From: Sinimarinibacterium arenosum
GTDB lineage: Bacteria > Pseudomonadota > Gammaproteobacteria > Nevskiales > Nevskiaceae
Direction of reading: 5' to 3'
DNA: 64,000 bases
Assembly: GCF_005047655.1 (NCBI RefSeq)
Contig: NZ_SUKF01000006.1
Coordinates: 223,388 to 287,387, forward strand
A program made the position numbers and the translations under genes. The first letter of the stretch is position 1; each line of letters opens with the position of its first letter. Below, piece after piece: positions 8,508-42,499 of this stretch. Below the pieces are notes generated by a model. The model was not told where the DNA came from. It searched no databases and worked only from the letters and a program-made list of their open reading frames with translations.

Positions 8508-8562
8508 TTTAGCGTGTAGCTTGCGCAGAGACTGACGCCGCCCCGGCACACGGAGTCCAAAA

Positions 8563-8838: not shown

Positions 8839-8851
8839 TCGCTGAGGCCGC

Positions 8852-9436
8852 TCAGCCCGGCGTTTCCGCCAGCAACACTTCGAGATCACGTTCGACGGCC
8901 CGCGCCTGCGGGTCGTCGACGTGGGTTTCGCCGACGTATAGCGCGCGCACGCGGCCGCGTCGGTCGATAAGGTAGTACGCCGGCCAGTAGCGGTTGCCGA
9001 TCGCGTGCCAATAGACAAATCCATTGTCCAGCATGATCGGATGCTGCAGGCCGAACTCGGTCACCTTGGTGACGACGCGCTCACGATCCTTCTCGTGATC
9101 GAATTCTGGCGTATGGATGCCGACAATCTGCAGACCGCGATCGGCATAGCGCTGCTCGATCGACTTGAGCCACGGAAACGAGCGGTAGCAGTTCCAGCAA
9201 TCGAAGGTCCAGAAATCCAGCAGCACCACGCGACCGCGCAGATCTTCCCAACGCAGCGGGGCAGCGTTGATCCAGCCCGCTGCCGTGGTCTGCGTAAACG
9301 CCGGCGGACGGTAGCGCGTGCCCTGCGTGTCCAGTGCCAGCACCGTATCCGCGTATGCCGGCAGGGCGGCGGTGACAGCCCCCAGCACCAGCCCGCCAAG
9401 CACACGCCGTCGCTGCCGATCGGCCGTCTCAGGCAT
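8852..9436 (-). CDS. Periplasmic thioredoxin-like (redoxin/TlpA family) protein
   Basis: 194 residues. The N-terminus has a Tat-like leader (RQRRRVLGGLVLGAVTAALP) ending in PAYA. A thioredoxin fold follows, with WTFDCWNCYRSFPWL giving a CWNC active site and a cis-Pro region near NRYWPAYYLID. It likely reduces or exchanges disulfides in the periplasm. Its 5' end overlaps the 3' end of msrA by 8 bp, so the two are probably co-transcribed, which fits a shared role in repairing oxidised proteins. The GPSF/CWNC-type family also includes the C-terminal domain of DipZ proteins. Confidence 0.87.
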   Translation of the reverse strand: MPETADRQRRRVLGGLVLGAVTAALPAYADTVLALDTQGTRYRPPAFTQTTAAGWINAAPLRWEDLRGRVVLLDFWTFDCWNCYRSFPWLKSIEQRYADRGLQIVGIHTPEFDHEKDRERVVTKVTEFGLQHPIMLDNGFVYWHAIGNRYWPAYYLIDRRGRVRALYVGETHVDDPQARAVERDLEVLLAETPG

Positions 9437-10079
9437 CGGGCTTGAGCTGATCCGCGTAGTAGTGCTTCAGCTTCTCGACTTTGGGCGCAGCCACCGCCTG
9501 GATATATGGCTGGCCCGGATTGCGCTTGGCGTAGTCCTGGTGATACGCCTCGGCCTCGAAGAACGCATCCAGGGGTTCGAGTGCGGTCACGATCGGCGCG
9601 TTGTAGGCGCCCGCGGCATCGAGCTGGCGAATGTAGGCCTGGGCGACGGCCTTCTGCGCCTCATCGGCATAGAAGATCGCCGAGCGGTACTGACGGCCAC
9701 GGTCATTCCCCTGGCGGTCGAGCTGTGTCGGATCATGCGCCACCGAAAAGAACACTTTCAGGATGCGACCAAGACTGATGCGGCGCGCATCGTAGACCAC
9801 CTTGACCACTTCCGCGTGATTGGTGGCCCCGCTGCATACGGTTTCGTAGCGCGCCTTGTCGGCGCTGTCGCCGGCGTAGCCGGACACCACATCGCGCACC
9901 CCATCGAGCGCGCGGAACACCGCCTCGACGCACCAGAAACAGCCGCCGCCCAGAACCACACTCTGCTCGGAAGGATCGGCCCCGAGATCCTGCGCCGGAT
10001 CGGGAAACTCGGCCGGCGTCAGCGGATGATCCTGACCGCGTGATGAACTGAATAGATTCACAGCTGACTCCCAAATCAC
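9429..10079 (-). CDS. msrA: Peptide methionine (S)-S-oxide reductase MsrA
   Basis: 216 residues. The active-site motif GGGCFWCVEAVF and the signature GYAGDSADKARYETVCSG identify MsrA, as do NHAEVVKVVYD and HDPTQLDRQGNDRGRQYRS. It reduces methionine-S-sulfoxide in proteins using thioredoxin. The start at 10079 gives a ~35-residue extension before the catalytic motif without an obvious signal peptide, so it is probably cytoplasmic. It is the first gene of a two-gene unit with the downstream redoxin. Confidence 0.96.
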   Translation of the reverse strand: MIWESAVNLFSSSRGQDHPLTPAEFPDPAQDLGADPSEQSVVLGGGCFWCVEAVFRALDGVRDVVSGYAGDSADKARYETVCSGATNHAEVVKVVYDARRISLGRILKVFFSVAHDPTQLDRQGNDRGRQYRSAIFYADEAQKAVAQAYIRQLDAAGAYNAPIVTALEPLDAFFEAEAYHQDYAKRNPGQPYIQAVAAPKVEKLKHYYADQLKPDA

Positions 10080-10299
10080 TGAGATCGCGTCACCGTCCGG
10101 CGAAGATCGCGGGCGATGGTCCGAAACAGCTTACCGCAGCGCCGCACTGCGAGCGGCCCAATCCGTCGCTTCCAGTCGCTCCTCGATTACGCGAAACAGT
10201 GATGCACAGATGCTCTGCGGCGGTGTGCCGATACAATCCAGCCGACACTCCGGCCGCTGCGTTGGAGCACCCCAAGAATCCGAATGGCTTGCAACAGCA

Positions 10300-11511
10300 G
10301 TGATCTCGAACGCCCAACCCGACGCACCGCCATCGATGCGCCACGGCACCGCAGCCGAAGTCTTCGGGACATCGCTGCGCCTGGGACTGACGTCCTTTGG
10401 CGGACCCGTCGCGCACCTGGGTTATTTCGAACGCATCTATGTGCGCGAACGCCAATGGATCAGTGTCGATGCCTATACGCAGCTGGTCGCACTGTGCCAG
10501 CTGCTGCCTGGACCCGCGAGCAGCCAGCTTGGCTTTCTGATCGGATGGCGCCGTGCCGGCTGGCGCGGTGCGCTGGCCGCATGGCTCGGCTTTACCGCAC
10601 CGTCCGCGGTCCTGATGTACGCAGCCGCGATGGGGGCCGTATCAGCCGACAGTGCGACAGCGCTGGCCGTACTGCATGGACTCAAGCTGGTGGCCGTCGC
10701 GGTGGTGGCGCAGGCGGTCTGGAGCATGGCGCGACGGCTGTGCACCACCCGCGCAATGATCGCGATCGCCCTGCTTGGCGGAACACTGCAGCTGGTGGCC
10801 GGCGGCACCCTGACACAGATGCTGGTCTTGCTGCTTGGCGCCATAGGCGGCGTGATCTGGGGCCGCAGTGCACTTTCGCCGGTTGACGTCCCGCTCATGG
10901 GCATCAATGTACGAACTGCCGTGATCGCTCTGGGCGTGTTTGCACTGCTGCTCGTCAGCCTGCCGCTTCTGGCCCTGCAGAGCCCGCACGGACTATGGGC
11001 GTTGGCGGACGTGTTCTATCGCGCCGGCGCGCTGGTCTTTGGCGGCGGTCACGTGGTGTTGCCACTGCTCAGCGACGCACTGGTGCCGCCGCACTGGATT
11101 TCGGCGGACCGGTTCGTCGCCGGCTACGGTCTGGCGCAGGCAGTGCCGGGGCCGATGTTCAGCCTGTCGGCGTATCTGGGGGCCGCCAGCCTGCCGCAGA
11201 TGCCGATGACGGCGGCAGCCATCGCGCTGCTGGCGATCTTTCTGCCCGGACTGCTGATCGCGGTGGCCGGCGCCTCAATGTGGTCCCAACTGTCGCGTCA
11301 TTCCGGCATGCGCTCCGCGCTCCTTGGCATCAACGCCGCAGTCGTCGGCATCCTCGCCGCCGCCCTGGTCGACCCGGTCTGGGTCACCGCGATCCGCAGC
11401 GTGGCGGATATCGGCATCGCGGCCCTGGGTGCCGCACTTCTGGCCCACGGCAGGCTGCCTCCACTGGGCGTGCTGGTCCTGTGCACGGTGTTGGGCGCTA
11501 CCGCGGCCTGA
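10300..11511 (+). CDS. chrA: Chromate efflux transporter ChrA (two CHR domains)
   Basis: 403 residues from GTG 10300; ATG 10336 would give 391 residues and is an equally good start. Two homologous CHR halves are visible: LGLTSFGGPVAHLGYFE with QLLPGPASSQ in the first, and AGALVFGGGHVVLPLL with AQAVPGPMFSLSAYLG in the second. About ten hydrophobic segments fit an inner-membrane transporter. The family exports chromate. No chromate regulator or reductase lies beside it; the neighbours are msrA (divergent) and a hemerythrin gene. Confidence 0.93.
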   Translation: MISNAQPDAPPSMRHGTAAEVFGTSLRLGLTSFGGPVAHLGYFERIYVRERQWISVDAYTQLVALCQLLPGPASSQLGFLIGWRRAGWRGALAAWLGFTAPSAVLMYAAAMGAVSADSATALAVLHGLKLVAVAVVAQAVWSMARRLCTTRAMIAIALLGGTLQLVAGGTLTQMLVLLLGAIGGVIWGRSALSPVDVPLMGINVRTAVIALGVFALLLVSLPLLALQSPHGLWALADVFYRAGALVFGGGHVVLPLLSDALVPPHWISADRFVAGYGLAQAVPGPMFSLSAYLGAASLPQMPMTAAAIALLAIFLPGLLIAVAGASMWSQLSRHSGMRSALLGINAAVVGILAAALVDPVWVTAIRSVADIGIAALGAALLAHGRLPPLGVLVLCTVLGATAA

Positions 11512-11634
11512 TGCTTAGGCAAGATTTAGTGTTGTCTTAGCGAACATTTAGCAAGCGCGCGTTCCGGCTTCCCCTAGCATTCCTGGCGTCCACTCTTGCC
11601 CCTTACCGGGGCGCTTGAATCAGGAGCACCAGGC

Positions 11635-12306
11635 ATGCACACCCCCCATGAACGCTATGACATCTATGGCCAGATCCACCGCGCGCTGCGCGCTGCGATG
11701 TCGCAAACGCTGGTCGACCTCGGCCGTGTCGACGCCGCCAGCGACGTGTCGGTCGAAACCGCGATGCAGGATGTCGACAACCTGCTGAAATTCTGCCTCG
11801 GTCATCTGGAGCACGAGAACGTTTTCGTTCACGCAGCGATGGATGCGCGCCGTCCCGGTTCATCGCACAAGACCGCTTCGGATCACGACCAGCACCTGTC
11901 GGCGATCGACATGCTGACGCGCGACATCGGGCGTGTACGTTCCAGCAGCGGTGCCGAACGGCGCGCGCGACTGCTTGCGCTGTACCAGCACCTCAGCGGC
12001 TTCGTCGCGGAAAACTTCGAACACATGCTGATCGAAGAGTCGTACAACAATGCGGTGCTGTGGGATCTGTACACCGACGCCGAGATCGAGCAGATCGAGC
12101 GCAACCTGGTGGCATCGATCCCGCCGCCGCAGGCGGCCGAGGTCATGCGCCACATGCTGCCGGCAATCAGCCAGCCGGAACGTATCGAAAAGCTGGGGCA
12201 GATGCGCGCAGCGATGCCGGGTGAAGCGTTCCGCGGCCTGTTCGAGATGATCCTGCCGCTGGTGCCGCAGGCCGATCGCGTGCGCCTCGAAGCTGCCCTC
12301 GCCTGA
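11635..12306 (+). CDS. Hemerythrin-like (HHE) domain protein
   Basis: 223 residues. Histidines and glutamates in a four-helix pattern (FCLGHLEHENVFVHAAM, SDHDQHLSAID, ENFEHMLIEESYNN) are the expected diiron ligands. HHE proteins bind oxygen or nitric oxide or take part in iron-linked sensing. The start at 11635 is preceded by AGGAGC. The protein is cytoplasmic, with no signal peptide. It ends 7 bp before the convergent GAF-domain gene. Confidence 0.85.
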   Translation: MHTPHERYDIYGQIHRALRAAMSQTLVDLGRVDAASDVSVETAMQDVDNLLKFCLGHLEHENVFVHAAMDARRPGSSHKTASDHDQHLSAIDMLTRDIGRVRSSSGAERRARLLALYQHLSGFVAENFEHMLIEESYNNAVLWDLYTDAEIEQIERNLVASIPPPQAAEVMRHMLPAISQPERIEKLGQMRAAMPGEAFRGLFEMILPLVPQADRVRLEAALA

Positions 12307-12313
12307 TGGCGCC

Positions 12314-13654
12314 CTAGCGCTGTTCTTCCAGTCGCAATGGCCGGCCGACGCGCAGACGAAAACGCCCGCGGCCGGTTTTTTCGATCCTGATGAAATCGCA
12401 GCGCTCGGCCAGTCGCTTGGTCAGCAGGATCAGCCTTGCTTCGAGATTGTCGACGATGTCCGGCAGCCGCAGTGACGCATCAAGGCGCAGCTCGCGGTTG
12501 CTGAACTCGTCACGATGCTCGGCCTGATGCACGCTCAACAGCTTCCACAGGATCGCGCCGGCGACGCCCTTGATCAGGTAGTCGTCGCCGATGAAGATGC
12601 TGTTGTCCGCAACATAGCGTCGTACCGTCACCGTCGGCGCGTCCTGCGGCTGATCCGGTGCGGCACCCGCGAGCGGCTCGGCATCGGCGTCGGCGCAGGC
12701 GGCAATTCCCGCCATCGTCGTCCCGAGCTGACTCGCCAGCATCGCCAGCGCATCTTCCTCGTCGTAGCCGAAGCGCTGATCCTGTGCTGACTCGACATAG
12801 ATCACGCCGAGTACGGTGTCGTCCGCCACGATCGGCACGGCGAGCTGGCTGTGCGGTGAGGGAAGTCCCGGAAACGGAATCTCGGTCTCGATCGAATCGA
12901 TCACACCCTGCGCCAGCGCCGCGTCGCGCACCGCGAGGCTGTAGGCGTACTCATGGGTCATATATGAAATGCCGATCGGTGTGCGCTGCTGTGCGCTGAC
13001 ACCGATGACGCCGGCGCCAAACGGGATTTCCGCGCCGATACCGGAATCGCTGTAGCCGCGTGTGGCGACGGCATACAGTTTGTTGCCGGCCTGATCGCAC
13101 AGCAGCAGCATCGAATGCGTGATGCCGAATTCCCGATCGAGGTCGGCCAGGAAATCGTCAAGCAGCGGCTCCAGCGCGCGATGCCGCGCGATGTTGCCGC
13201 TGACGCGGCGCATCGCCGACAGCAGATTCACGCAGCCGCCCGGACGCGGCAGCGTCGGTCCCGGCACCGTATGGATTTCCAGCACACGGTAGATGTCCGA
13301 TCCGCGCAACATGAAGACGCCGGTCATTCCGGTCAGCGACGCGATGCCGGCCAGCTTCGCCTTCATGCTTTCGAACAGTGCGCCCTCGGATTCGGTGCGC
13401 TCGTAGCACACACTGAGGCGGTACTTGGCGCCGGTCTCCGGATCGATCACCTGCACCGTCGCCTGCGGATTTGCCAGGATGTTCTCGCGTGTCTTGTTGA
13501 AGAACTGGAACGACAACGCGATGTGATCGCGATCGACGCGATGCACCTGGGACACCAGCGTGATGTTCGGCACGCCATCGACCGCGCAGGTCGCAATCAC
13601 GCCCGGGATGCCGCCCTCCAGGCAACCGCGGATGTCGTCGACGTTCAGTGTCAC
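12314..13654 (-). CDS. PPOX (flavin split-barrel) - GAF - winged-helix-like fusion protein
   Basis: 446 residues. Residues 1-~130 resemble the pyridoxamine-phosphate-oxidase-like split barrel (IPGVIATCAVDGVPNITLVS, LSFQFFNKTRENI). A GAF domain follows (~150-320: LYAVATRGYSDSGIGAEIPF, LAVPIVADDTVLGVIYVES). The last ~110 residues resemble a winged-helix output (AILWKLLSVHQAEHRDEFSN, IVDNLEARLILLTKRLAERC). It starts with GTG, which overlaps the upstream stop as GTGA, so it is translationally coupled to the small split-barrel gene before it. A cytoplasmic redox or ligand-sensing regulator is plausible, not proven. Confidence 0.8.
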   Translation of the reverse strand: MTLNVDDIRGCLEGGIPGVIATCAVDGVPNITLVSQVHRVDRDHIALSFQFFNKTRENILANPQATVQVIDPETGAKYRLSVCYERTESEGALFESMKAKLAGIASLTGMTGVFMLRGSDIYRVLEIHTVPGPTLPRPGGCVNLLSAMRRVSGNIARHRALEPLLDDFLADLDREFGITHSMLLLCDQAGNKLYAVATRGYSDSGIGAEIPFGAGVIGVSAQQRTPIGISYMTHEYAYSLAVRDAALAQGVIDSIETEIPFPGLPSPHSQLAVPIVADDTVLGVIYVESAQDQRFGYDEEDALAMLASQLGTTMAGIAACADADAEPLAGAAPDQPQDAPTVTVRRYVADNSIFIGDDYLIKGVAGAILWKLLSVHQAEHRDEFSNRELRLDASLRLPDIVDNLEARLILLTKRLAERCDFIRIEKTGRGRFRLRVGRPLRLEEQR

Positions 13655-14154
13655 GCCGCGCTCCCGAGCCGCTGCCCGGCGCCGGGCCCGGGGGTCTGCA
13701 CGAACTGCGCTGACGGCCGCATCACCACGGCGACGAGATCGTTCTCGTCGATCCCCAGAAATATTTCGGTGAACTCCGGCGCATGCCCGATGGCATCGAG
13801 CGACGCGATGAATTTGCGCAGGTAGGTGCGCGCGGCCTCGATGTCGTCGACATCGGCATCAACCACGCGCGCGCCGCTGGCCTTGATCTGCAGCGTGCGG
13901 TGGCTGTCGACGTTGGAGAACACCGCGGCCACCTCGCCGCAGGCCTCGACGTCTGCGAGCAATGCGGCGGTCTGGGCCCGCACCAGCAGGACACGAATCT
14001 CGGCACGGTCAGCGCTGACGCGGGCGCCACAGCAGCGTGCGACCGACGGCCGCAGCTGGGCATCGCGCGAGGCGACATTGATCGATACGCCGGACGTGAC
14101 AAAGGTCGCCGTCGCCTCGTCAATGCCGGCTGCGGGGGGGTATTTCTGGACCAT
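13651..14154 (-). CDS. Stand-alone pyridoxamine 5'-phosphate oxidase-like flavin-binding protein
   Basis: 167 residues from ATG 14154. FVTSGVSINVASRDAQLRPS, RVLLVRAQTAALLADVEACG and VAAVFSNVDSHRTLQIKA fit the FMN split-barrel family. Function cannot be assigned beyond flavin (or F420/haem) binding. Longer in-frame extensions upstream look non-coding. It is the first gene of a two-gene unit with the PPOX-GAF fusion and is divergent from the quinohemoprotein dehydrogenase, with about 145 bp between the starts. Confidence 0.8.
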   Translation of the reverse strand: MVQKYPPAAGIDEATATFVTSGVSINVASRDAQLRPSVARCCGARVSADRAEIRVLLVRAQTAALLADVEACGEVAAVFSNVDSHRTLQIKASGARVVDADVDDIEAARTYLRKFIASLDAIGHAPEFTEIFLGIDENDLVAVVMRPSAQFVQTPGPGAGQRLGSAA

Positions 14155-24745: not shown

Positions 24746-24765
24746 ACCTGTCCGAACGGACAGGT
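24746..24765 (+). promoter_or_regulatory. lux-box-like 20-bp dyad upstream of a lipoprotein gene
   Basis: ACCTGTCCGAACGGACAGGT has 9-base arms around AA and the ACCTG/CAGGT ends of LuxR-type boxes. The identical 20-mer occurs at 34510-34529 before the LuxR-linked operon. It ends 98 bases before the lipoprotein start at 24864, similar to the 81-base spacing of the other copy. Confidence 0.75.
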
Positions 24766-29673: not shown

Positions 29674-30435
29674 ATGAACACTGCATCCCTGGAAGCGTTC
29701 TGCGATCTCTGGCTGGCAAGCTGGACCGGCAATCGGCCTGACACACTGCTGGCGTTCTATAGCGAAGACGCTTTCTATTGCGATCCGGCGTTCGCAGACG
29801 GACTGCGTGGACACACCCAGCTGCGGAGCTACTTCGAAAAGTTGCTGGCACGTCATCCGGATTGGATCTGGACCCGCGAACGCCTTCAACCGACGCCCAC
29901 AGGCTTCACGTTGAAATGGCGCGCCCGCCTGCCCGGTGGCTCGTCGTTCGCGGGGCTGGACATCGTCGAGACCGACGGCAGACAGATCACCCACAACGAG
30001 GTGTACTTCGATCCCACACCGCTACGCATGCAACGCGCGCGTTTTGCCAATCCGGCGGCGGCGACGGAATTCGCACACGCTTGGATTTCCGCATGGAACG
30101 CGCGAAATCTGGACGCGGTGCTGGCGATGTTTGCCGACGATGTCCGCTTCACCAGCCCCAAGGCCCAAGCACTCGTGGGCACACCGAGTCTGAGCGGCAA
30201 CGACGCGTTGCGCGGCTACTGGTCGCAGGCGTTGCAGCGCATCGAGAACCTTCAGTTCACGTTCGAGGACCGATGCTGGGATCCCGCAACGAATCTGCTG
30301 TCGGTGCGGTACGTCGCGCAACTAAATGCACAGCGACATCGCGCAGTCGAGACCTGGCGATTCGGCAGCGACGGACTAATCGCCGAAGGCGAAGCCTTTT
30401 ACGGCGCCGACAGAGGCACTGCGGAGCCCGTCTGA
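29674..30435 (+). CDS. Double NTF2-like (SnoaL-like) protein
   Basis: 253 residues made of two similar ~120-residue halves, each starting with a W-rich helix and a xxYxxDA/MFADDV motif: LWLASWTGNRPDTLLAFYSE (first) and AWISAWNARNLDAVLAMFAD (second). This is the SnoaL/NTF2-like cone fold in tandem. The family includes isomerases, hydrolases and small ligand binders; no catalytic residue allows a specific call. Its last 37 bases overlap the 3' end of the opposite-strand gene. Confidence 0.8.
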   Translation: MNTASLEAFCDLWLASWTGNRPDTLLAFYSEDAFYCDPAFADGLRGHTQLRSYFEKLLARHPDWIWTRERLQPTPTGFTLKWRARLPGGSSFAGLDIVETDGRQITHNEVYFDPTPLRMQRARFANPAAATEFAHAWISAWNARNLDAVLAMFADDVRFTSPKAQALVGTPSLSGNDALRGYWSQALQRIENLQFTFEDRCWDPATNLLSVRYVAQLNAQRHRAVETWRFGSDGLIAEGEAFYGADRGTAEPV

Positions 30436-30977
30436 GACATCATCGTCAGCAGGCGTTGTTCAATCAGCGTGGCTGTGGCGGCGTCGCGCCGCCTAGTCAG
30501 CAGTGCGCGCAGTTCTGGCAGCAGCGAATACACATGCCGCAGCGAAACGCACAACGACAGCCGCATGATGAAGCGCTGCGCATCACGCCCCATCATCTCG
30601 CGCGCAGTCTGTTCGAGAAACAGCGTGACCTGTTCAAGTGCAGCGCCACCAATGTCCGGAATCGCTTCCAGATCCGGCGCGAAATCTGCAGCCCTGAATT
30701 CCAGCGTCTGCGTGTGGTCCGGACGGACCGAAGCAACCGCCGCAGGCGCTACAGCAGCGGAGTTGCCGACCGGCTCGATCAGCCCGTGCTCCATCAGTGT
30801 CGAGCACGCCGCACCAATATCGCCAACGCGCGCATAGAGTGCGCCCAGTTCATCCATCCGTCGCACGCCGTCGGTCGCGATCAGCACGATCCGCAGCTGC
30901 GATGGCAGCCCCCGACTGCGCGTGCGCATTTCCTCACGCCCACGCTCCGTCTTTGCGAACACTGTCGCTCGATCCAT
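30399..30977 (-). CDS. Conserved protein with winged-helix-like N-terminus, unknown function
   Basis: 192 residues from ATG 30977. The N-terminal ~70 residues (FAKTERGREEMRTRSRGLPS, RIVLIATDGVRRMDELGALY) resemble small proteins common in betaproteobacteria that look like winged-helix or FHA-partner modules. An alanine-rich linker and a helical C-terminus follow. It is the last gene on the strand of the LuxR-linked operon, 90 bases after the hydrolase stop, so co-transcription is possible but less certain than for the other four. Confidence 0.6.
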   Translation of the reverse strand: MDRATVFAKTERGREEMRTRSRGLPSQLRIVLIATDGVRRMDELGALYARVGDIGAACSTLMEHGLIEPVGNSAAVAPAAVASVRPDHTQTLEFRAADFAPDLEAIPDIGGAALEQVTLFLEQTAREMMGRDAQRFIMRLSLCVSLRHVYSLLPELRALLTRRRDAATATLIEQRLLTMMSQTGSAVPLSAP

Positions 30978-31067
30978 GCTCGCTCCCCAAGCGATGACCA
31001 CGCTCCGGACTGGCCCGAAGCACCCAACGCCAGAGGAAACAGCAAATCCCGTGCCGCCAGACCCGGA

Positions 31068-31991
31068 TCAGGCTGCGCTGCGCCGAGTCTCCGCTTCGGC
31101 TCCGGTGCAGAACGCAACCACCTCGGTGACTACCTGCGGATCGCGCAGGATGCGGCGATGCCCCAGACCCTGCGTCGTCAGCAGACGCGCCCCGGCCAGT
31201 GCAGCACATGCGGTGACGCCGTCTGCGTGGGCAACAATCCGGTCATCGCGGTCATGCACGACCAGACCGCGCAGACGCAATCGGCGCAGCGCGGCGCGCG
31301 TGGAGCAATCCGCCAGCGGCCGCTGATAGTGCCGCTCCAGCCGGCGCCGCAGCGCCGCAGTCGCCGGCGGCGGCAGCCCCAGCATGGCAGCCACGCGGGA
31401 AACCTCGTCGCCCAGGTCGCCTCCAGGTGCGAGCAGCACCAGCGATTCGGTCAGGCCGCGCGGATCCGCGCCCAGGTGTTCCGACAGATACACCGCGCTG
31501 GCGGCCGCCCCCAGAGAGTGCGCAATGATCGCGACCGGCGCACCTAGACGCGCCGTGCAAGCCGCGATGGCGCGCGCCATGTCGTGAACATCGGTCTGCG
31601 TGCCAGGCGATGCGCCGTGCGCGGGCGCATCCAGTGCGACCGCGCGCATCCCCGCCGCGGTGAGCGGTGCGACGAATGCCGACATGTCTGCGCTGCGTCC
31701 TTCCCATCCATGCATCAGCAGGACCCATGGCCGTAAAGCTGCGCCCCAGCTCAGCGCATGCAACTGCCGGTCGCAGTCGGCGATGCTCAGGATCTCGGCA
31801 TTGCCAAGATCAACCGGCTTTGCGGCTCGATGCGCCGGCGTCAACATGCGACGCGCAACATAGTCACCGACCGCGGCCGGTGCCAGGCGCCCGCAGAGGC
31901 CGAAGATCAAGCGCAGCGGTAACGGCGCCGGATGCAGCGCGCTGGGCGCCGAGGTGTGGACAGCGGACTGACTGGACACTGCGCTCATCAA
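31068..31991 (-). CDS. Alpha/beta hydrolase of the LuxR-linked operon
   Basis: 307 residues. VLLMHGWEGR is the oxyanion strand. The nucleophile elbow is IIAHSLGAAAS, with Ala replacing the first Gly of GxSxG. The acid is likely in VVHDRDDRIV, and the catalytic His in TQGLGHRRIL. No lid or substrate can be assigned. In an operon with an acyltransferase and an AlkB-like hydroxylase, a thioesterase, deacylase or lipid esterase role is plausible (inference). Its start overlaps the hydroxylase stop by ATGA. Confidence 0.85.
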   Translation of the reverse strand: MMSAVSSQSAVHTSAPSALHPAPLPLRLIFGLCGRLAPAAVGDYVARRMLTPAHRAAKPVDLGNAEILSIADCDRQLHALSWGAALRPWVLLMHGWEGRSADMSAFVAPLTAAGMRAVALDAPAHGASPGTQTDVHDMARAIAACTARLGAPVAIIAHSLGAAASAVYLSEHLGADPRGLTESLVLLAPGGDLGDEVSRVAAMLGLPPPATAALRRRLERHYQRPLADCSTRAALRRLRLRGLVVHDRDDRIVAHADGVTACAALAGARLLTTQGLGHRRILRDPQVVTEVVAFCTGAEAETRRSAA

Positions 31992-33061
31992 ATCGCTCCT
32001 TGCTGTTGCAGGTGCGGTCGGTCGTGCTCGACCAACCGTGCGGCGTCACGGTTTGCGGCGTGCAGCGCACGCACTCGCGGGTCCATCAGCGTGTGCCACA
32101 GCGGCGGGACCAGCGCCAGAAACACCATCGAATAGAAACCCAACGGCAGCCGTGGAGCGCCCGGCGCCGGCACCAGCACAGCGGCCGGCAATGCCGGATT
32201 GCGGTGATGCCCGGCGTGGCGGCTGAGGTTGAACACCAGCAGCGCCGAAATTGGATCGCTGGCGTCCCAGGCATGATGCTCGGCCACTTTCTCGGGCCTG
32301 CCATCACGCATCGCTCTACGCAGGCCGTAGTGCTGCACGTAGTTGACCGCTTCGAGCAGATGCACCGCCATCAGGCACTGCGATACGAAGAACAGCGTCG
32401 CCAACGGCCCGAACACCGCCGCGATCGCTGCCAACAGCCCGATCTGGATCACGGCGTACTGCAACATGCGGTTATGCCGACTCCAGCGCGGCAGATGCCG
32501 GCGCTGCAGTCGCGCGCATTCGATGCGCCAGGCATCGTGCGGACCGCGCCACAGCATGCGACCGAAAAACGTCGGGAAGCTCTCGCCCAGCGCGGCGCTG
32601 CTCGGATCGGCGTCGGTCGCAACGTTACGGTGATGACCGTAGACGTGCTCGATGCGAAAGTGCATGTAGCCCGTCATTGCCAGCAGCGCCAGCCCCAGCG
32701 CGCGCTGTGCCGGATCGCGCCGGTGCACCAGTTCGTGCGCCGCCGTGATCCCGGCGGTGCCGGTCATGATGCCGGTCGACGACACCAGCGCAAAGAACTC
32801 CAGTGGGGTGACGCCAGCGGCCACACGCATGACCGCCAGCAGCACCGCAGCCTGAGCCAGGGCATAGACCCAGAATGTCCACGGCGCAAACAGATGCCGC
32901 AGGACCTTCGGATTCGCCCGCCAGCCCGGCGCCACCCGCGAAACCGTCCAATCGGCCAGCGGCACCAGCAACAGATTCAGCGCAACTGGCAACCACAGCC
33001 ATACGCCGCCCATATACAAGGCCAGCGCCGCGGTGGCGGGATAGATCAGCGCCGGCATCAC
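31988..33061 (-). CDS. AlkB-like membrane diiron hydroxylase of the LuxR-linked operon
   Basis: 357 residues with about six membrane helices. All histidine boxes are present: HELVHRR, EHVYGHHRN and LSRHAGHHRNP, plus NYVQHYG where classical AlkB has NYxEHYG. Such enzymes insert oxygen at C-H bonds of alkanes, fatty acyl chains or related lipids, using electrons from rubredoxin or ferredoxin. It is clearly different from the AlkB encoded at 36304-37473. Four-base overlaps with both neighbours make it translationally coupled to the acyltransferase and the hydrolase, so its substrate is probably the acyl product of the pathway (inference). Confidence 0.88.
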   Translation of the reverse strand: MMPALIYPATAALALYMGGVWLWLPVALNLLLVPLADWTVSRVAPGWRANPKVLRHLFAPWTFWVYALAQAAVLLAVMRVAAGVTPLEFFALVSSTGIMTGTAGITAAHELVHRRDPAQRALGLALLAMTGYMHFRIEHVYGHHRNVATDADPSSAALGESFPTFFGRMLWRGPHDAWRIECARLQRRHLPRWSRHNRMLQYAVIQIGLLAAIAAVFGPLATLFFVSQCLMAVHLLEAVNYVQHYGLRRAMRDGRPEKVAEHHAWDASDPISALLVFNLSRHAGHHRNPALPAAVLVPAPGAPRLPLGFYSMVFLALVPPLWHTLMDPRVRALHAANRDAARLVEHDRPHLQQQGAI

Positions 33062-33735
33062 GCTGCCCTCGCCGTGAGTCCGGTCTTGCGCTGCGGCCGC
33101 AGATACTTGTCCTGGATACAGCGCATCACGTACTGCTGATGGAACCAGCGACGCGCGCGCTCGTGCATGTAGGCAATCGATGTCGCGTCGCCAGTGTCGT
33201 AATAGATCACGAAATCCTGCAGCTCCGGCCGTCCGAGCAGGTGCAACGGCGCGTGGTCCACCGGCACCACACCGAAGTCGACGAAGAAACGCAGGGTCTG
33301 CGCTCGGGTCATGCCGACGATGTAGTCGTAACCCAGCGCGTGCGCTTCACGCGCTGCGGCATACAGCATCATCCCGAGCAGGATCGTGGCACGCATCGGC
33401 GTGGCGATGACGACATTGTTGACCTCCAGCAGCCGCGCCTGAGGTCGTTCGACCGCCGGCTCCAGACTGAAATACGGACTGCTGCGCTCGGTCACTTCAC
33501 TGAGCCGGAAGATGCCGACGATGGTGCCGTGATACTCGACGCCGAAGCAGCGCGACTGCTCGCCGGGAAGAATCTCGCGCGACAGAAAGCCCAGCGGCGC
33601 GTAGACCTGTTCGAGCAAGGCCAGATAGCGTTGCTGTTCGGCACGGCCATCCAGACGATGCACGCTGTAGGCCTGCGGACGCCACGCATCGATGCCGGGC
33701 ATCAGAGAGCTTGTTGGCAAGCGTTCGGTCTGCAT
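33058..33735 (-). CDS. GNAT/autoinducer-synthase-fold acyltransferase (LuxI/FeeM-like)
   Basis: 225 residues. CFGVEYHGTIVGIFRLSEV and LLEVNNVVIATPMR match the central strands of the LuxI/FeeM superfamily; the Arg in FRL and the Glu in LEV fall where LuxI has conserved Arg and Glu, but the second LuxI Arg (SRF) is Asn here. LMMLYAAAREAHALGYDYIV-like helix and VDFGVVPVD close the fold. It should transfer a fatty acyl group from ACP or CoA to a small amine. It is 3 bases from the diiron-enzyme gene and overlaps the hydroxylase gene by 4 bases. Confidence 0.7.
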   Translation of the reverse strand: MQTERLPTSSLMPGIDAWRPQAYSVHRLDGRAEQQRYLALLEQVYAPLGFLSREILPGEQSRCFGVEYHGTIVGIFRLSEVTERSSPYFSLEPAVERPQARLLEVNNVVIATPMRATILLGMMLYAAAREAHALGYDYIVGMTRAQTLRFFVDFGVVPVDHAPLHLLGRPELQDFVIYYDTGDATSIAYMHERARRWFHQQYVMRCIQDKYLRPQRKTGLTARAA

Positions 33736-33738
33736 CGT

Positions 33739-34428
33739 TTACGCCGCCCGCGCCAACGTCGGCAATGGCACCCGGCCCTCGGCAACGTCGCGGAACATCT
33801 GACCGTAGTGGTGATAGGTCATGCGCCGTGCGTGGACGACATCGTCGAAGTCGGCGTCACTGGTGACGAACTCCTCGATCGCGCGACGCGCCTCCACCAG
33901 ATGTTTCTGATCGAAGCCGGCATGGCTGCGCAGGAAGGTCACCGCGGCCTCGGGAATGCCATAGCGCTGCACCAGCATCTGGGCAAATCCGCCAGCGATC
34001 TCCGCACCCATGCCCTCGGTCGCGCTGGCGACGCCAAGGATCGCGACCGGGTTGCCGTAACTGGCGAGGAAGTAGTTTTGCGTGAACAAACCACTGGCGC
34101 CCGGCCCGGCCGGCGCCGCGACTGCGGCCTCAGCATCAACGCCCAGATTGCGCAGATCCTTCAGGCAGAACAGTTCGTGCCCGTGTTCCTCACCCGCCTG
34201 CTCGATGAACCAGGCGCGCAGCGCCCGCTTGCGGTCATCGCAGCGAGCGGCACCAAGTGCGAGGGTGCGCGAGGTGTGGCGCACCAGGTGAAAGGTCTGC
34301 ACCAGATACGCGGCATAGTGCTCGCGGCTGACGCGACCCTCGCCCAGCATCTGGATCAATGGATTGGTGGCGATGTGCCGGACATAGTCCTCACGGCATG
34401 CCTCCACCACCTGCTCGAATCGTCCCAT
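33739..34428 (-). CDS. Haem-oxygenase-like diiron oxidase/oxygenase (HDO), first gene of the LuxR-linked operon
   Basis: 229 residues from ATG 34428, with in-frame ATGs further upstream. An all-helical protein of the TenA/PqqC/haem-oxygenase-like type. Candidate metal ligands: YLVQTFHLVRHTSR, EQAGEEHGHELFC and RSHAGFDQKHLVEA, each giving a Glu/His/Asp pattern expected in HDOs such as UndA or BesC. Family members decarboxylate fatty acids, cleave amino acids or N-oxygenate amines; which applies here cannot be told. It is the first gene after the lux-box-like dyad at 34510-34529. Confidence 0.78.
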   Translation of the reverse strand: MGRFEQVVEACREDYVRHIATNPLIQMLGEGRVSREHYAAYLVQTFHLVRHTSRTLALGAARCDDRKRALRAWFIEQAGEEHGHELFCLKDLRNLGVDAEAAVAAPAGPGASGLFTQNYFLASYGNPVAILGVASATEGMGAEIAGGFAQMLVQRYGIPEAAVTFLRSHAGFDQKHLVEARRAIEEFVTSDADFDDVVHARRMTYHHYGQMFRDVAEGRVPLPTLARAA

Positions 34429-34509
34429 CGTCGTTCCCCGTGTTGCCATACCGACCGATGCGGTGCACCGGAATGACAACCATGATTCGAGCGATCAGCC
34501 GCGGTGTGT

Positions 34510-34529
34510 ACCTGTCCGAACGGACAGGT
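34510..34529 (-). promoter_or_regulatory. lux-box-like 20-bp dyad before the HDO-acyltransferase-hydroxylase operon
   Basis: The same 20 bases as at 24746-24765 (arms ACCTGTCCG/CGGACAGGT around AA). It lies 81 bases upstream of the HDO start. The LuxR gene ends about 250 bases further upstream, so the dyad sits in the gap between receptor and operon. The rest of 34429-34778 shows no gene. Confidence 0.8.
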
Positions 34530-34778
34530 TCTCCTCCCAGGCGATTCGGCATCTACTGGTGGATTTGCCAGCCGCGGGAAATTTGGGAATTTTGAGACTC
34601 AGCAGTTGTACGCGCGCTGTGTATTGGCAACCACACACACGCAGCGTTCGCAGTCGCTTACGAGGTCACCGGTCTCGCGCAAGGCGCATGGCCTCGACCT
34701 TGGGCACGGCGCTCCGGCCACTGCCACGTCGTTCGCACTCGCGCACGAGCCCACTGGACTCATGCACGCAGAGAGTGC

Positions 34779-35543
34779 TCATCCCCACTCAATCAGCCCC
34801 TGGGACAGAGCGACAGCGATGGCTTGCGAGCGGTTACTCGCGTTGAGCTTGCGCATCGCGTTGTGCAGATGGAATTTCACTGCGCGCTCGCTGCAGCTCA
34901 TTTGCAGCGAAATTTCCCAGTTGGTCTTGCCGAACTTGGCCCAGTTCAAGACTTCGACCTCGCGCTTGGTCAGATCGGGAGTCTGTTTCAGTAGTCCGAG
35001 ATGCACTTTGGACAGCGCGGCATTCAGGTGCGGCAACAGGTAGCGAATGATCAGGATGTGCCGTTGTTCGCTGGTCAGGTCGCGACCGGCACATGAAAAG
35101 AAGCTGCCGGAGGACGAGCGCAGAAAGCGCGCGCCGAACGAGAAGCCGTTGTCGAGACCGAATTCATGCGCCAGCCGATAGAACGCTTGATCTCCGCGCC
35201 GCTGATAGCGTTCGCGCAGGTCGGCCCAGATCAACGGTTTCTCGGTCTTGAACAGCAGGCGCGCCGCCGGGTCGATGTCCATCAGCCGTCGATCGCGGTA
35301 GGTCGTCAGCCAATCCATCGGGAAGTCGACGTTGATGCGTCGGGTCGTGCCGACGATCGCATCCTCACTGTCGAGCTCGGCGACACTGACATGCGCGTAC
35401 TCAATCGGCACCAGCTGAGCCGTGCTTTTGATCAGCTCGCGAAACTGCTCCTCGGTACCAACCGACAGCGCGGTGTCGATCAAAGCCAGCACCCCGATCA
35501 GATCCGCCTTCGACAGCAACCGGCGTAATTCAGCGGCGGTCAT
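34779..35543 (-). CDS. LuxR-family quorum-sensing receptor/regulator
   Basis: 254 residues. The N-terminal autoinducer-binding domain keeps the residues that are invariant in acyl-homoserine-lactone receptors: Trp and Tyr in DWLTTYRD, Asp-Pro in MDIDPAA, Trp in PLIWADL and Gly in GFSFGARF. The C-terminal helix-turn-helix is LTKREVEVLNWAKFGKTNWE and ERAVKFHLHNAMRKLNASNR. There is no canonical luxI in the window; the nearest candidate is the LuxI-fold acyltransferase in the operon it precedes. The ligand is unknown. Confidence 0.93.
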   Translation of the reverse strand: MTAAELRRLLSKADLIGVLALIDTALSVGTEEQFRELIKSTAQLVPIEYAHVSVAELDSEDAIVGTTRRINVDFPMDWLTTYRDRRLMDIDPAARLLFKTEKPLIWADLRERYQRRGDQAFYRLAHEFGLDNGFSFGARFLRSSSGSFFSCAGRDLTSEQRHILIIRYLLPHLNAALSKVHLGLLKQTPDLTKREVEVLNWAKFGKTNWEISLQMSCSERAVKFHLHNAMRKLNASNRSQAIAVALSQGLIEWG

Positions 35544-36303: not shown

Positions 36304-37473
36304 TCAGCTTTGCATCGCCACCCTCAGTCCCCGCATGCCGCTGCGAATCGACTGCTCACGTGCAAGCTCGCGTTCCTTCGGAGTTGCATGGCGGCTATCC
36401 CAGTCGTTGAGCAGGGGCACCATCGCACGCTTGAACAGCGGCGGCACCAGCGCGACCAGAATCATCGTCAGGTAGCCATGCGGCAGCATCGGGGCATCGG
36501 GCATCGCCTGCAGCTTCCAGAACTCGGCCTCAGCTTCGGCATGATGATGCGAATGACGGGTCAGGCTGAACAGCGTCATGCTGCTGAGCATCTTGTTGGA
36601 GTTCCAGGAGTGACGCGGCTGAACCGGCGTGCTCGGATCCCGCACCAGTCCGTAATGCTCGAAGTAGTTGGCAATTTCCAGAACCGCCTTGGCCCACGCC
36701 GACACCACCGCAAACAGACCGACACCTGCCCAGCCCGCAATGTAGTAGGCCCCGACAAAGGGAACCACGCACATCAGGTTGCCACGCATCAGGCGGCTGT
36801 GAATCGGATTCCAAACAGACTTTCCGGTCTTGGCCAGGCGCGCCTTCTCCATCTTCCAGGCGTGGGCATAGCTGCCGATGGTCGAGCGAACGATAAACGG
36901 GTACAGACTTTCGCCACGCTTGGCCGTTGCCGGATCGGTCATCGTTCCCACGTTGACGTGGTGACCATAGACATGCTCGATCGCGAACGACACGTCGCTG
37001 CTGAACACCAGCATCCAGCGTCCGAGGAACATATCGAGCGGCTTGGACGTGCGATGCGTCAACTCATGGCCGACATTGGTTCCTGCGACCGCATTGAACA
37101 GACCCACGCTGAGAACACCACCGATCCACATGATCCAGCTATCGGTCGCGGCGCGGCCCGCAAACATGTCTATGCCCATGTTCTGCTGTACCCATGCGCC
37201 CAGACCCATCGGGTCACCGGACCCGGCCATCCAGATGAATACGCCATCCATGACCACGAGCAACGGCAACACCGTATACAGCGTCAGGTTGAGCAACCAA
37301 GTCGCGCCGAAATCGGGCTCTGACAGATCTTCCGGAAGAATGGCATCCAAAACGACGAAGCCGATGACCACCGCAAGAATCCCGAACCACATCCACCACC
37401 CACCCAACATGAGGGTGTACGTTATCCCCACCACCATCGCTGGCATCGCTAGCGATCGAATGTATTTCATCAT
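36304..37473 (-). CDS. alkB: AlkB/XylM-family alkane or aromatic-methyl hydroxylase
   Basis: 389 residues from ATG 37473 (a second ATG at 37470; GGAGAAGGG upstream serves both). Six membrane helices and all histidine boxes: GHELTHRT, EHVYGHHVNV, TRHSHHHAEA and NYFEHYGL. The third box lacks the usual LQRHSDHHAHP of classical alkane hydroxylases, so alkane versus other terminal-methyl substrate is open. It is divergent from a MalT/AlkS-like regulator with a 24-bp palindrome between them, and a XylA-type reductase gene lies beyond the regulator. Ends in a strong terminator. Confidence 0.93.
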   Translation of the reverse strand: MMKYIRSLAMPAMVVGITYTLMLGGWWMWFGILAVVIGFVVLDAILPEDLSEPDFGATWLLNLTLYTVLPLLVVMDGVFIWMAGSGDPMGLGAWVQQNMGIDMFAGRAATDSWIMWIGGVLSVGLFNAVAGTNVGHELTHRTSKPLDMFLGRWMLVFSSDVSFAIEHVYGHHVNVGTMTDPATAKRGESLYPFIVRSTIGSYAHAWKMEKARLAKTGKSVWNPIHSRLMRGNLMCVVPFVGAYYIAGWAGVGLFAVVSAWAKAVLEIANYFEHYGLVRDPSTPVQPRHSWNSNKMLSSMTLFSLTRHSHHHAEAEAEFWKLQAMPDAPMLPHGYLTMILVALVPPLFKRAMVPLLNDWDSRHATPKERELAREQSIRSGMRGLRVAMQS

Positions 37474-37563
37474 GACCCTTCTCCTGCCTGGACTTATCTG
37501 ACGACTTGACGGAAAACAGTCGTTTCCGCCGACGTCGCTAGATTTATTCACGGCGACTTCGCC

Positions 37564-37616: not shown

Positions 37617-40202
37617 ATGGTCAGAATGGAACGAACCGAGGGCGATGCCTCAGCCGGCCTCTCGACGAGCGAGGGGGTGGTGTCGATCGTGCGCACGCGC
37701 CTGACGGATTCGGCGTGGCGCGAACCGATCCTGCTGATCGAAGCGCCTGCTGGCTATGGCAAGAGCACGCTTGCTCAGCAGATTTTCAAATCCTCGCCGC
37801 GCGGAACCAAAGCGATCGCACTGTCACTGAAGGCGGAGCACCGGAATCCCGGCGTGCTGCTGGCAGAACTCATTGATCTCCTGTCCCGCGGCAAGGGCAA
37901 ACCCACGGCGGCATCAAGCGACCCCGCAGACCTGTTCCTGCGCCTCACGAAGAAGATTGAGAATTCTTCTCAGCGCCTGCGCCTGATTTTCGACGACGTC
38001 CATCATCTGGCCGGCAGTCCGGCCATGGCTTATCTCAGTCGCCTGCTGGGTGGCGCAGGTCCCAATCTGCAATTTGTCATGACGTCGCGGGAGTTCCGCG
38101 ATCCGCAACTGGCGATCACCGACCTGTCTGCCAAAGGCATGGTGCGCTGGATCGGTCCCGAAGCACTGGCGATGACCGAGGGAGAAGCGCTGGATCTGGC
38201 CAAGATGCGCGCCGTACGGTGGCAACCTGAGCAGGTCCAGACGTTGGTGAAGACCATCCAGGGCTGGCCTGTCCTGCTGCAGCTGGCGTTATCGGGGGCG
38301 CCGTCCGCACTCGATCAAAGTCGGTTGGCGATGACCGATGCCGCGCCGGTCAGACGCTACATCGAGGACCGTTTTCTCTCCGGTCTGACCAGACCGCAGC
38401 ATCAACTGCTCGCGGTGATGTCATTTGACGACGCCATCCCGGTCGAGATGCTGAACACTCTGGACATCGTCGTTCCGAAGGATGCGCTGGACAGTCTGGA
38501 ACGGCTGGGCATCCTGCAACGGCTGCGCATGAACACCGGTCAAGAGGCGCTCAGCATTCACCCGGTGTTACGTGATTCGGTCCTGCGATCCGCGTCAGTC
38601 GAAACCCTGACGCAACTCAATCAACTGCGCCGCAGCGGCGCGCATTGGTGGCACGAGCACAACGATGTGCGCCGCGCCGTGCAATTGATGGTCGATGCCG
38701 GCGATGGCCTGCAAGCAGCCGAGTGGCTGCAGGAAATTTCGGAACGCATGGTGTTCCAGGCCGGATGGCACCAGACCTATCTCGATCTGCTGGAGTTGTG
38801 CCAGCCGCTGCCGCCCCATTTGAAAGACCACCTGGAAGAGCTTGCAGTCTGGGCGCTGATCTTTCAGCGCCGCCACGTGGAGGCCGAGCAGAGGCTCAAG
38901 CGCACCCGTTCGGTGACGGAAGCGGCCTCCGGTGTTGTTCTTCTGCAAAGGGGGGTGATCGCCGGCATGCGTGACGATCACCGCTCTGCCGCGGCATTCG
39001 CTGGCGAGTGGCTTCGCAACCACCACGGGGACGACTATCAGCAAGGCGTGGCCCGTGTGGTCGTAGCCTTCGAGCAGAAGTGTGAGTGTCAGTTCGATGA
39101 GGCAAGCCGCAATCTCTCGCTGGCGCGCGGCCTGTTCGCCAACATCCGCTCCGATTACGGCCTGGCCTGGGCGCACGTGGTATCGCTGCTGACCTTGCTG
39201 AAGGCGGGACGCCACCGCCAGGCCCGCGCGGAAATCTTTACCAGCCTCAAATCGATCTCCGGCGAGGACTGGGCTTCCAGCCAGCGCGCGATGCTCCTCG
39301 GCATTCAAGCGCTGCTGCATTACGAGCGCGACGAACTGGCCGAGGCGCGCGCAGCCCTGGAGGACTGTCTGCCGCTGCTGCCCGATCAAGGTCTCGCTGA
39401 TGCGGTGATCTGCGGCTACATCACCGCGGCGCGCCTGCGCTGCGCCGAGGGCGATCTCGGCACTGCACTGGATTTGCTGGCCGAAGGCGAACATATCGGC
39501 GCGCAGCGCGGTTTCCCGCGACTGTCCAAGGCCATCGCCTCGGAACGCGTGCTCAGTCTGCTGCGTGCCGGTGCCATCGACCAGGCCGAGTCCACGGCTC
39601 ACCTGGCGGACCTGCGTCCCGACAGCAACGCTCCGTTCGCAAAGGACCGTGGCGTTCGCCTGTTCACGCGTCTGGCACTGCTCCGGGGGGAGGCACGTCA
39701 GGCGGCAAGCCTGATAGCACCCATGGTCGCGCATGCCCGCAACTCGGCACAGCAGTTCAAGCTGTGCGAGTGCCTGCTGCTGAAGGCCGTCGCCAACTAC
39801 GATCTCGGCAACACACCGCGGGCGCTGGAGCAGATTCACGAGGCGCTCAAGCTGGGAGAACTGGAGGGTTACTTCCGGGTGTACTACGACGAATACACCC
39901 TGCTTGCTCCGCTGCTGGAAACATACCAGTCCGAATATCGCGGACGCTGCAGTCCGCTCGCGCAGAAAATCCGCGAAAAGGCATCCCCGAGCCATGCCGA
40001 AAACACGCTGGACGCGTTGAGCGAGCGCGAGCTGCAGATCATCAAGTTGCTGTCTGAGGGATTGAGTAACGCCGAGATCGCCAACCGCTGCTTTCTCGGC
40101 GAGGGCACCGTCAAATGGTATCTGCACAACATCTACGGCAAGCTGGATGTCGGCAGCCGCATGGCAGCGGTCCACGCCGCCCAGCGTGCAGGACTGATCT
40201 GA
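37617..40202 (+). CDS. MalT/AlkS-like ATP-dependent LuxR-HTH regulator
   Basis: 861 residues. Walker A EAPAGYGKSTLAQQ (~45) and Walker B LRLIFDDVHHLA (~123) define the STAND-type ATPase. A long TPR-like superhelix covers ~330-780. The C-terminal LuxR-type helix-turn-helix is LSERELQIIKLLSEGLSNAE and EGTVKWYLHNIYGKL. AlkS, the activator of alkane hydroxylase genes in Pseudomonas, has this architecture and size. The gene is divergent from alkB, so it is probably the alkane-responsive activator of alkB and of the reductase gene downstream; the inducer is not known. Confidence 0.9.
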   Translation: MVRMERTEGDASAGLSTSEGVVSIVRTRLTDSAWREPILLIEAPAGYGKSTLAQQIFKSSPRGTKAIALSLKAEHRNPGVLLAELIDLLSRGKGKPTAASSDPADLFLRLTKKIENSSQRLRLIFDDVHHLAGSPAMAYLSRLLGGAGPNLQFVMTSREFRDPQLAITDLSAKGMVRWIGPEALAMTEGEALDLAKMRAVRWQPEQVQTLVKTIQGWPVLLQLALSGAPSALDQSRLAMTDAAPVRRYIEDRFLSGLTRPQHQLLAVMSFDDAIPVEMLNTLDIVVPKDALDSLERLGILQRLRMNTGQEALSIHPVLRDSVLRSASVETLTQLNQLRRSGAHWWHEHNDVRRAVQLMVDAGDGLQAAEWLQEISERMVFQAGWHQTYLDLLELCQPLPPHLKDHLEELAVWALIFQRRHVEAEQRLKRTRSVTEAASGVVLLQRGVIAGMRDDHRSAAAFAGEWLRNHHGDDYQQGVARVVVAFEQKCECQFDEASRNLSLARGLFANIRSDYGLAWAHVVSLLTLLKAGRHRQARAEIFTSLKSISGEDWASSQRAMLLGIQALLHYERDELAEARAALEDCLPLLPDQGLADAVICGYITAARLRCAEGDLGTALDLLAEGEHIGAQRGFPRLSKAIASERVLSLLRAGAIDQAESTAHLADLRPDSNAPFAKDRGVRLFTRLALLRGEARQAASLIAPMVAHARNSAQQFKLCECLLLKAVANYDLGNTPRALEQIHEALKLGELEGYFRVYYDEYTLLAPLLETYQSEYRGRCSPLAQKIREKASPSHAENTLDALSERELQIIKLLSEGLSNAEIANRCFLGEGTVKWYLHNIYGKLDVGSRMAAVHAAQRAGLI

Positions 40203-41761: not shown

Positions 41762-42499
41762 ATGACCTTTGCAGATCAAACCGTCGCGCGCAGCGCGCGT
41801 GAACTCTACGCCAGCAGCCATCAGGGCATCCTGTCGACCCTTTCGCTGGAAGTCCCCGGCTACCCGTTCGGCTCGGTCATCACGTTCGCACCGGATCGTG
41901 GCGGACGCCCGATCATCCTGATCAGCGACATCGCGCAGCACACGCACAACATCAAGGCCGATGCGCGCGTGTCGTTGACGCTGACCGAGGGCGGCGACGA
42001 TGTGCAGTCCACCGGCCGCGTCACCATCGTCGGCAACGCACATCCGGTAGCGGACGGCGAAATCGACGATGTCGCCGCGCGCTACTACCGGCGTTTTCCG
42101 CATGCGTCCGACTATCACAAGGCGCACGATTTCTCGTTCTTCCGCATCGATCCGGTGCGCGTGCGCTACATCGGCGGCTTCGGCCGCATTCACTGGGTCA
42201 GCGCGAATGAACTGTGCCTGGCCAATCCGTTCGACGAGGACGTCGAGGCCGGTATGATTGCCCACATGAATGTCGATCACGTCGATGCAATGCACGACTA
42301 CTGCCGGCTGTTCGGCGTCGACCCGCAGAAGCAGCACCCGCGCATGACCGGTATCGATGCCGAAGGCTTCGACCTGATGCTCGGCAAGCGTCTTTTGCGC
42401 ATTCCATTCGAACAGCCGGTGACGTCCGCCATCGAAGTGCGTCAGGCCATGGTTGCACTGGTTCAGCGCGCACGCAGCGAGTCTGCGGACACTCCATGA
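41762..42499 (+). CDS. HugZ-like haem/flavin split-barrel protein (PPOX + DUF2470)
   Basis: 245 residues. The N-terminal split barrel (ASSHQGILSTLSLEVPGYPF, RPIILISDIAQHTHNIKADA) and the C-terminal DUF2470 (MIAHMNVDHVDAMHDYCRLF, IDAEGFDLMLG) match HugZ/HutZ-type proteins, which bind and sometimes degrade haem. No haem-uptake genes adjoin it. Its stop overlaps the start of a 47-residue membrane protein (ATGA). Confidence 0.88.
   Translation: MTFADQTVARSARELYASSHQGILSTLSLEVPGYPFGSVITFAPDRGGRPIILISDIAQHTHNIKADARVSLTLTEGGDDVQSTGRVTIVGNAHPVADGEIDDVAARYYRRFPHASDYHKAHDFSFFRIDPVRVRYIGGFGRIHWVSANELCLANPFDEDVEAGMIAHMNVDHVDAMHDYCRLFGVDPQKQHPRMTGIDAEGFDLMLGKRLLRIPFEQPVTSAIEVRQAMVALVQRARSESADTP

Follow-up and report, generated by a model that had tools for sequence, protein, structure and literature searches.

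What does a LuxR-type receptor read, and what does it control, when the genes that follow its lux box encode an oxidase and an acyltransferase that is not a LuxI? The question is raised by a locus in a stretch of 64,000 nucleotides from Sinimarinibacterium arenosum (hereafter the window, numbered from its first letter), whose genome is treated here under the genus name Solimonas, order Nevskiales. On the minus strand, a LuxR gene, a lux box, and the genes for a haem-oxygenase-like dimetal oxidase (HDO), an acyltransferase (AT), an AlkB-type membrane hydroxylase (AlkB1) and an alpha/beta-hydrolase follow each other in this order. LuxR, box, HDO and AT occur together in three of the 10 other Solimonas genomes, and the conserved unit is LuxR–box–HDO–AT. 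We read the locus as a LuxR-gated operon that makes an N-acyl amino-acid-like metabolite, which may also be the ligand of the receptor, and give this reading a probability of roughly 0.6. The features are the following.

34779..35543, minus strand: LuxR-type receptor/regulator, CviR-like, with intact WYDPWG (Pfam domains, CviR match, residues)
34510..34529, no strand: lux box ACCTGTCCGAACGGACAGGT in the LuxR–HDO intergenic region (pattern, position, conservation)
33739..34428, minus strand: HDO-type oxidase (PF14518, fold, ligand set)
33058..33735, minus strand: AT, a GNAT-superfamily N-acyltransferase of the FeeM/LuxI/OlsB kind (structure; no curated family above cut-off)
31988..33058, minus strand: AlkB1, AlkB-type membrane hydroxylase, lineage-specific (8f6t match, His motifs)
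31068..31988, minus strand: alpha/beta-hydrolase, lineage-specific (PF12697, AHSLG nucleophile elbow)

The Solimonas genomes compared were 11, the window's own and 10 congeners. The three congeners with counterparts are a Nevskiales metagenome-assembled genome (G004), S. flava DSM 18980 (G006) and S. variicoloris DSM 15731 (G007), each of them assigned to the genus of the window's genome. The enzyme genes lie close together: 3 bases separate the first two, and with ATG starts the next ones overlap by 1 base each. The original prediction, made from the letters alone, had given the spacing as 3, −4 and −4; the first value holds, and both overlaps of four need the alternative starts of AlkB1 (GTG, 33061) and the hydrolase (TTG, 31991). 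The HDO gene also has an alternative start (TTG, 34479), and the ATG start of AlkB1 is conserved in G004. The range of the operon had been drawn from 30399 and so took in an additional open reading frame (ORF) at 30399–31001, which we exclude as doubtful: it matches no Pfam or NCBIfam family, has a weak coding score and gave no tblastn match in any of the three related loci. The enzyme classes that had been named, HDO, acyltransferase, AlkB-like and hydrolase, agree with profiles, structure and motifs, and the claims of a receptor with all checked signal-contact residues and of a 20-bp lux-box dyad are borne out by what follows.

The receptor carries a GerE domain at 71.8 bits and an Autoind_bind domain at 63.2 bits, above the respective Pfam cut-offs of 23.5 and 23. 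Among solved chains Chromobacterium CviR comes closest (E 1e-32), and the DNA-recognition segments of the two are much alike; the six contact residues W78, Y82, D91, P92, W106 and G133, placed by eye on the CviR alignment, are all present. These form WYDPWG, named in a passage of PMC4414361 as the motif of AHL (acyl-homoserine lactone) sensors, and the operon-linked receptor keeps the motif in all four genomes. By its domains and contact residues the protein is an AHL-type LuxR, and it may bind an AHL. An identity as EpsA, the LuxR associated with XrtB/PEP-CTERM, was rejected, as TIGR03020 gives 74.9 bits against a cut-off of 170.

A second LuxR gene lies near the core in S. variicoloris and S. 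flava (L007:12833-13603 and L008:12976-13749), and in these extra copies Phe replaces the first Trp of WYDPWG. The two extra copies share 65% identity only, with a synonymous divergence (dS) of 1.28, and the HDO DNA is identical between the two species. Between the two LuxR genes of L007 sits a 190-aa ORF (L007:11322-11894) with no Pfam match; its neighbours are a 16-mer of the CviR type and a gene judged by eye to be TetR-like.

The box, ACCTGTCCGAACGGACAGGT, has the form ACCTG-N10-CAGGT and also agrees with the 16-bp CviR binding consensus CTGNCCNNNNGGNCAG given in PMC12114271. An ACCTG-N10-CAGGT lies upstream of the HDO start at 81 bp in the window, 84 bp in G004 and 62 bp in both S. flava and S. 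variicoloris; the full 16-mer stands in the HDO promoter of the window and G004, and the other two carry ACCTG-N10-CAGGT only. In a four-way alignment of the LuxR–HDO gap, the boxes of the window and G004 are in register and those of S. flava and S. variicoloris, where the gap is shorter, are not, so that the equivalence of the latter rests on pattern and position; these two genomes are identical in the gap and count as one observation there. Within the window, two matches were observed, the HDO box and a site at 24746, against a shuffle expectation of 0.00 for the strict and 0.02 for the loose pattern. Genome-wide, ACCTG-N10-CAGGT is found 16, 7, 3 and 6 times in the four genomes, and the reversed pattern, as a control, 1, 1, 0 and 1 times. 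Control of the HDO operon by LuxR is likely on this sequence evidence.

The same half-site has a second life in this genome. The CviR-type 16-mer is present in 18 copies, against 0–5 in the 10 congeners, with 8 copies of its reversed control in the own genome and 2–21 in the congeners, and the exact 20-mer of the HDO box recurs at window 24746–24765 and at other places. A dispersed repeat of ~130 bp was found by BLAST at 7 places in the own genome, some of them partial (copies include C22:2487-2618, C22:138080-138214 and C23:168959-169129), and at 2 in G004; BLAST found none in S. flava or S. variicoloris. The longest copies contain the core palindrome ACCTGTCC-N4-GGACAGGT or something close to it. 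With a profile built from three repeat copies and compared with 20,000 random window positions, the flanks of 16-mer sites were repeat-like in L085 and L086 (p < 0.0001 each), at two sites in L087 (p = 0.0017 and 0.0006) and at window 24746 (p = 0.006), and borderline in L084 (p = 0.055). Several sites lie in or near the repeat; by the gene calls of our own script, these often sit on the downstream side of a gene. As the excess of 16-mers largely belongs to the repeat or resembles it, the idea of a genome-wide LuxR regulon was dropped.

The oxidase matches PF14518 at 75.5 bits against a cut-off of 28.9. Its putative metal ligands, E81-x2-H84, E138 and H169-x3-D173-x2-H176, assigned by sequence spacing, are invariant in all four members. 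Passages of PMC13185094 describe such a 3-His/3-carboxylate set for MboA and most other HDOs, call it canonical, and add that HDOs appear specialised in amino-acid substrates. The best structure model aligns with 3dde at Z 25.7 (225 residues, root-mean-square deviation, rmsd, 2.4 Å), followed by TenA and CADD (Z 22.9 each), haem oxygenases (Z 21–22) and UndA (Z 20.6).

The AT is harder to place. Realigned, its model matches SACOL1063 at Z 11.2 and FeeM (2g0b) at Z 11.1 over 159 residues with an rmsd of 4.0, the FeeM alignment being the longest among the top ones, and the LuxI proteins LasI, RpaI, TofI and BjaI at Z 10.0–10.3; with scores so close, the GNAT subfamilies are tied. We take congeneric proteins that match PF13444 to be OlsB-like, and a profile comparison of the AT with these found a common RLLEV-like segment (E 3e-4, probability 40%, 44 columns). 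As modelled, the AT is a GNAT that resembles FeeM and LuxI in fold. An assignment to LuxI was rejected, as both a PF00765 match and the E-x-D-x-x-D pattern are absent (the acidic residues of LuxI are given as E44, D46 and D49 in a section of PMC5539150), and the 'LuxI-fold acyltransferase' of the original prediction consequently survives at the superfamily level only. An assignment by profile to the FeeM-type N-acyl amino acid synthases was likewise rejected, since the cut-off of PF21926 was missed, in spite of the agreement in fold.

The distribution of the core is narrow. The AT is present in 4 of the 100 genomes searched, the own included, and 4 of the 85 in the order; no AT or HDO orthologue was found among the other relatives searched. 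Across the class, 2 of 369 genomes gave a match, the own and G207, whose weak hit (E 3.7e-4) lies in a 209-aa frame. By eye this frame looks like an unrelated protein bound for export, neither LuxR nor HDO has a credible match next to it, and the hit was rejected. In the phylum only the own genome of 398 gave a match, and neither plasmids nor viral contigs gave any. The contig scans for the AT found nothing with a single protein as the query and three loci with an alignment, and they depend on short peptides that match exactly and may thus miss distant relatives. HDO proteins of at least 54% identity are confined to the same 4 of 100 genomes, the next best reaching 36%, and any HDO homologue at all is found in 23 of the 100; beside 16 of the 22 homologues of ~24–36% (L014–L029, up to 1.5 kb on each side), tblastn found no AT, LuxR or AlkB1. 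LuxR proteins of at least 47% identity are found in the same four of 61 genomes, with the next best at 33%. Between the own genome and G004, the ratio of nonsynonymous to synonymous divergence (dN/dS) is 0.15–0.21 for LuxR, HDO and AT.

AlkB1 and the hydrolase are well recognizable as such. AlkB1 matches PDB 8f6t (E 1.3e-55, 192 bits) and has the motifs HELVH, EHVYGHH, NYVQHYG and RHAGHH, a set of four His motifs that we assume to mark the AlkB type; the hydrolase matches PF12697 at 47.8 bits and has an AHSLG nucleophile elbow. The two adjoin the AT in G004 alone of the three other loci, at 62% and 51% identity (the hydrolase was compared within the loci), and for this reason we define the core without them. 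The AlkB homologues of S. flava and S. variicoloris lie elsewhere in the genome and reach at most 39%. The co-occurrence of all five genes, proposed in the original prediction as a check, is thus seen in part: LuxR, HDO and AT recur in the three congeners, and the linked five-gene set in one of the three.

From the genes and their motifs, the box conserved in place, and their co-occurrence, we infer a regulation, an order of reactions, a product and a ligand. LuxR bound to an N-acyl signal would occupy the lux box that separates its gene from that of HDO and activate the HDO–AT operon, which in the lineage of the window would comprise HDO, AT, AlkB1 and the hydrolase. The AT would couple a fatty-acyl chain, from acyl carrier protein or acyl-coenzyme A, to an amine, and this amine would most likely be an amino acid. 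HDO would oxidise the amino-acid part before or after the acylation; in the window's lineage, AlkB1 might then hydroxylate the acyl chain and the hydrolase trim or release it. The product would be an N-acyl amino-acid-like metabolite that may double as the LuxR ligand. Such an operon would most naturally yield an N-acyl product, as had been foreseen from the letters; the hydroxylated or decarboxylated product ascribed to the operon as a whole is not supported in that form, since only one of the three other loci has the AlkB step. A bolder form of the idea, in which LuxR–box–HDO–AT is a self-contained quorum-sensing circuit, with a classical AHL-type receptor, a synthase of the LuxI superfamily that is not a LuxI, and an N-acylated, HDO-oxidised amino-acid derivative in place of an AHL as the autoinducer, seems to us rather unlikely.

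Several observations weigh against an N-acyl amino-acid pathway under LuxR control. Of the five HDO models, one reached a pLDDT of 83 and the other four 46–54, so the confidence comes from one in five; its nearest relative, 3dde, is a protein without known function, and since TenA and haem oxygenases score near CADD, the fold alone is no proof of a diiron site. For the AT, whose model has a mean pLDDT of 62 and speaks for the fold class only, the top Foldseek hits were KKT23 and NatD, with FeeM in fifth place. The sole family match is FeeM PF21926 at 19.4 bits, under the cut-off of 27, and PF21926 matches two of the four AT members at E up to 1; moreover, the match is unspecific, as the OlsB-like congeneric proteins L001 and L077 equal or exceed this score (20.8 and 20.6 bits). 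In comparisons with S. flava and S. variicoloris, dN/dS is higher, 0.34–0.62. The operon shows no evident exporter or redox partner, no consensus of the sigma-70 type was found beside the box, the core palindrome of the dispersed repeat shares a half-site with the box, and all the evidence is confined to one genus.

The most serious rival overlaps with our preferred reading and differs in the ligand only: a LuxR solo would sense the AHLs of other species and switch on production of a distinct N-acyl compound, bioactive or surface-active, which is not itself the signal. We consider this possible. PF00765 matched proteins at 22–27 bits in 7 of the 11 Solimonas genomes, five of them formally over the cut-off of 24, and the five proteins scanned of the seven (all but L080 and L082) fit PF13444 far better, at 101–112 bits against 22–26 for PF00765, and were rejected as LuxI. 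No clear LuxI was thus found in the 11 genomes with PF00765, a search that was not aimed at synthases of the LuxM/AinS and HdtS types, and the solo explanation gains from this, as it does from a WYDPWG that is unaltered here and altered in receptors of the PauR/PluR type. No LuxI stands out by sequence as the partner of the receptor, whose ligand would be either a foreign AHL or a compound made by the cell, for which the AT would be the obvious candidate. On the other side, the linkage of receptor, HDO and AT in an order resembling a lux pair, with one box and in four genomes, is also the look of a receptor–synthase pair, and eavesdropping leaves the membership of the AT in the LuxI superfamily without a reason.

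A fatty-acid or alkane catabolic operon, or one serving the envelope, strikes us as improbable. AT and hydrolase would then remodel acyl chains, HDO would decarboxylate fatty acids as UndA does, AlkB would add a hydroxyl group to the chain, and LuxR would sense an acyl metabolite. The HDO fold does match that of UndA (TM 0.76), AlkB1 homologues are found in all 11 Solimonas genomes, and a second gene of the AlkB/desaturase family (36304–37551, minus strand) and a divergent MalT-type LuxR regulator (37617–40202, plus strand) come next upstream of the operon; but two of the three other loci lack AlkB1 and the hydrolase, HDO is nearer to 3dde than to UndA, and catabolism under the control of LuxR and a lux box would be unusual. 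Least probable, in our view, is that the palindrome is a copy of the dispersed repeat or the operator of another regulator, and the genes are not under LuxR control. Such an origin would fit the half-site shared with the repeat, known from 7 places in the own genome and 2 in G004, and the weakly repeat-like flanks of the HDO box (p = 0.03). The corresponding boxes of G004 (p = 0.35) and of S. flava and S. variicoloris (p = 0.86, and no match to the repeat) keep ACCTG-N10-CAGGT without repeat-like flanks, and it is for this reason that we accept the HDO box.

A LuxR solo beside biosynthetic genes is of an already known kind. In PauR/DarABC and PluR/PpyS of Photorhabdus, a LuxR solo without LuxI senses what the bacterium's own non-LuxI enzymes make, as is proposed here, but these receptors have an altered WYDPWG and sense dialkylresorcinols or pyrones (PMC4414361), whereas the motif is intact here and the synthesis genes, HDO and a GNAT acyltransferase, lie directly downstream of the lux box. 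CviR/CviI of Chromobacterium provides the nearest solved receptor and the same 16-bp consensus, but no cviI/LuxI was found here and a different acyltransferase with an HDO is in the synthase's place. FeeM (PF21926) shares the GNAT fold, the longest of the top structural alignments and a weak profile match; the AT differs in falling below the cut-off, in its linkage to LuxR and HDO, and in a conserved C-terminal segment past the aligned part. The amino-acid-modifying HDOs MboA, PolF, AetD and HrmI, as well as UndA and CADD, resemble our oxidase in fold and, by sequence, in the 3-His/3-carboxylate set, but its nearest relative is the uncharacterised 3dde and its gene adjoins an acyltransferase. 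Unlike the AlkB alkane 1-monooxygenase, AlkB1 belongs to an acyltransferase operon that is probably LuxR-controlled, and it is absent from two of the four loci. The lipothrenin cluster, making an N-acyl threonine with a diiron N-oxygenase, was rejected as a counterpart, its oxygenase being AurF-like and its genes different according to an extract of PMC10616846.

Solimonas and Nevskia receive no mention in the main text of the LuxR-solo survey PMC10134790. Among the matches listed from the open-licence literature on LuxR together with HDOs, N-acyl amino acid synthases of the FeeM kind, AlkB or Solimonas, titles and the beginnings of abstracts gave no description of this gene set, and the pairing of an HDO with a free-standing N-acyltransferase was not met among the listed matches either. 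If the product of the operon is the ligand, it would represent a new class of LuxR signal and show that a receptor of the AHL type can take a different enzyme of the acyltransferase superfamily as its partner, and one small locus would allow a test of how N-acyl amino acid synthases and AHL synthases are related by evolution. Even as an operon eavesdropping on AHLs, the pairing of the two enzymes would point to new chemistry.

By eye, the genes flanking the operon in G004 (L006:11726-17388 and 2463-3203) seem to be matched at window ~6958–14154 and 41762–42499, with the counterparts lying on both sides of the operon and many kilobases off, which suggests local insertions around an old chromosomal site.

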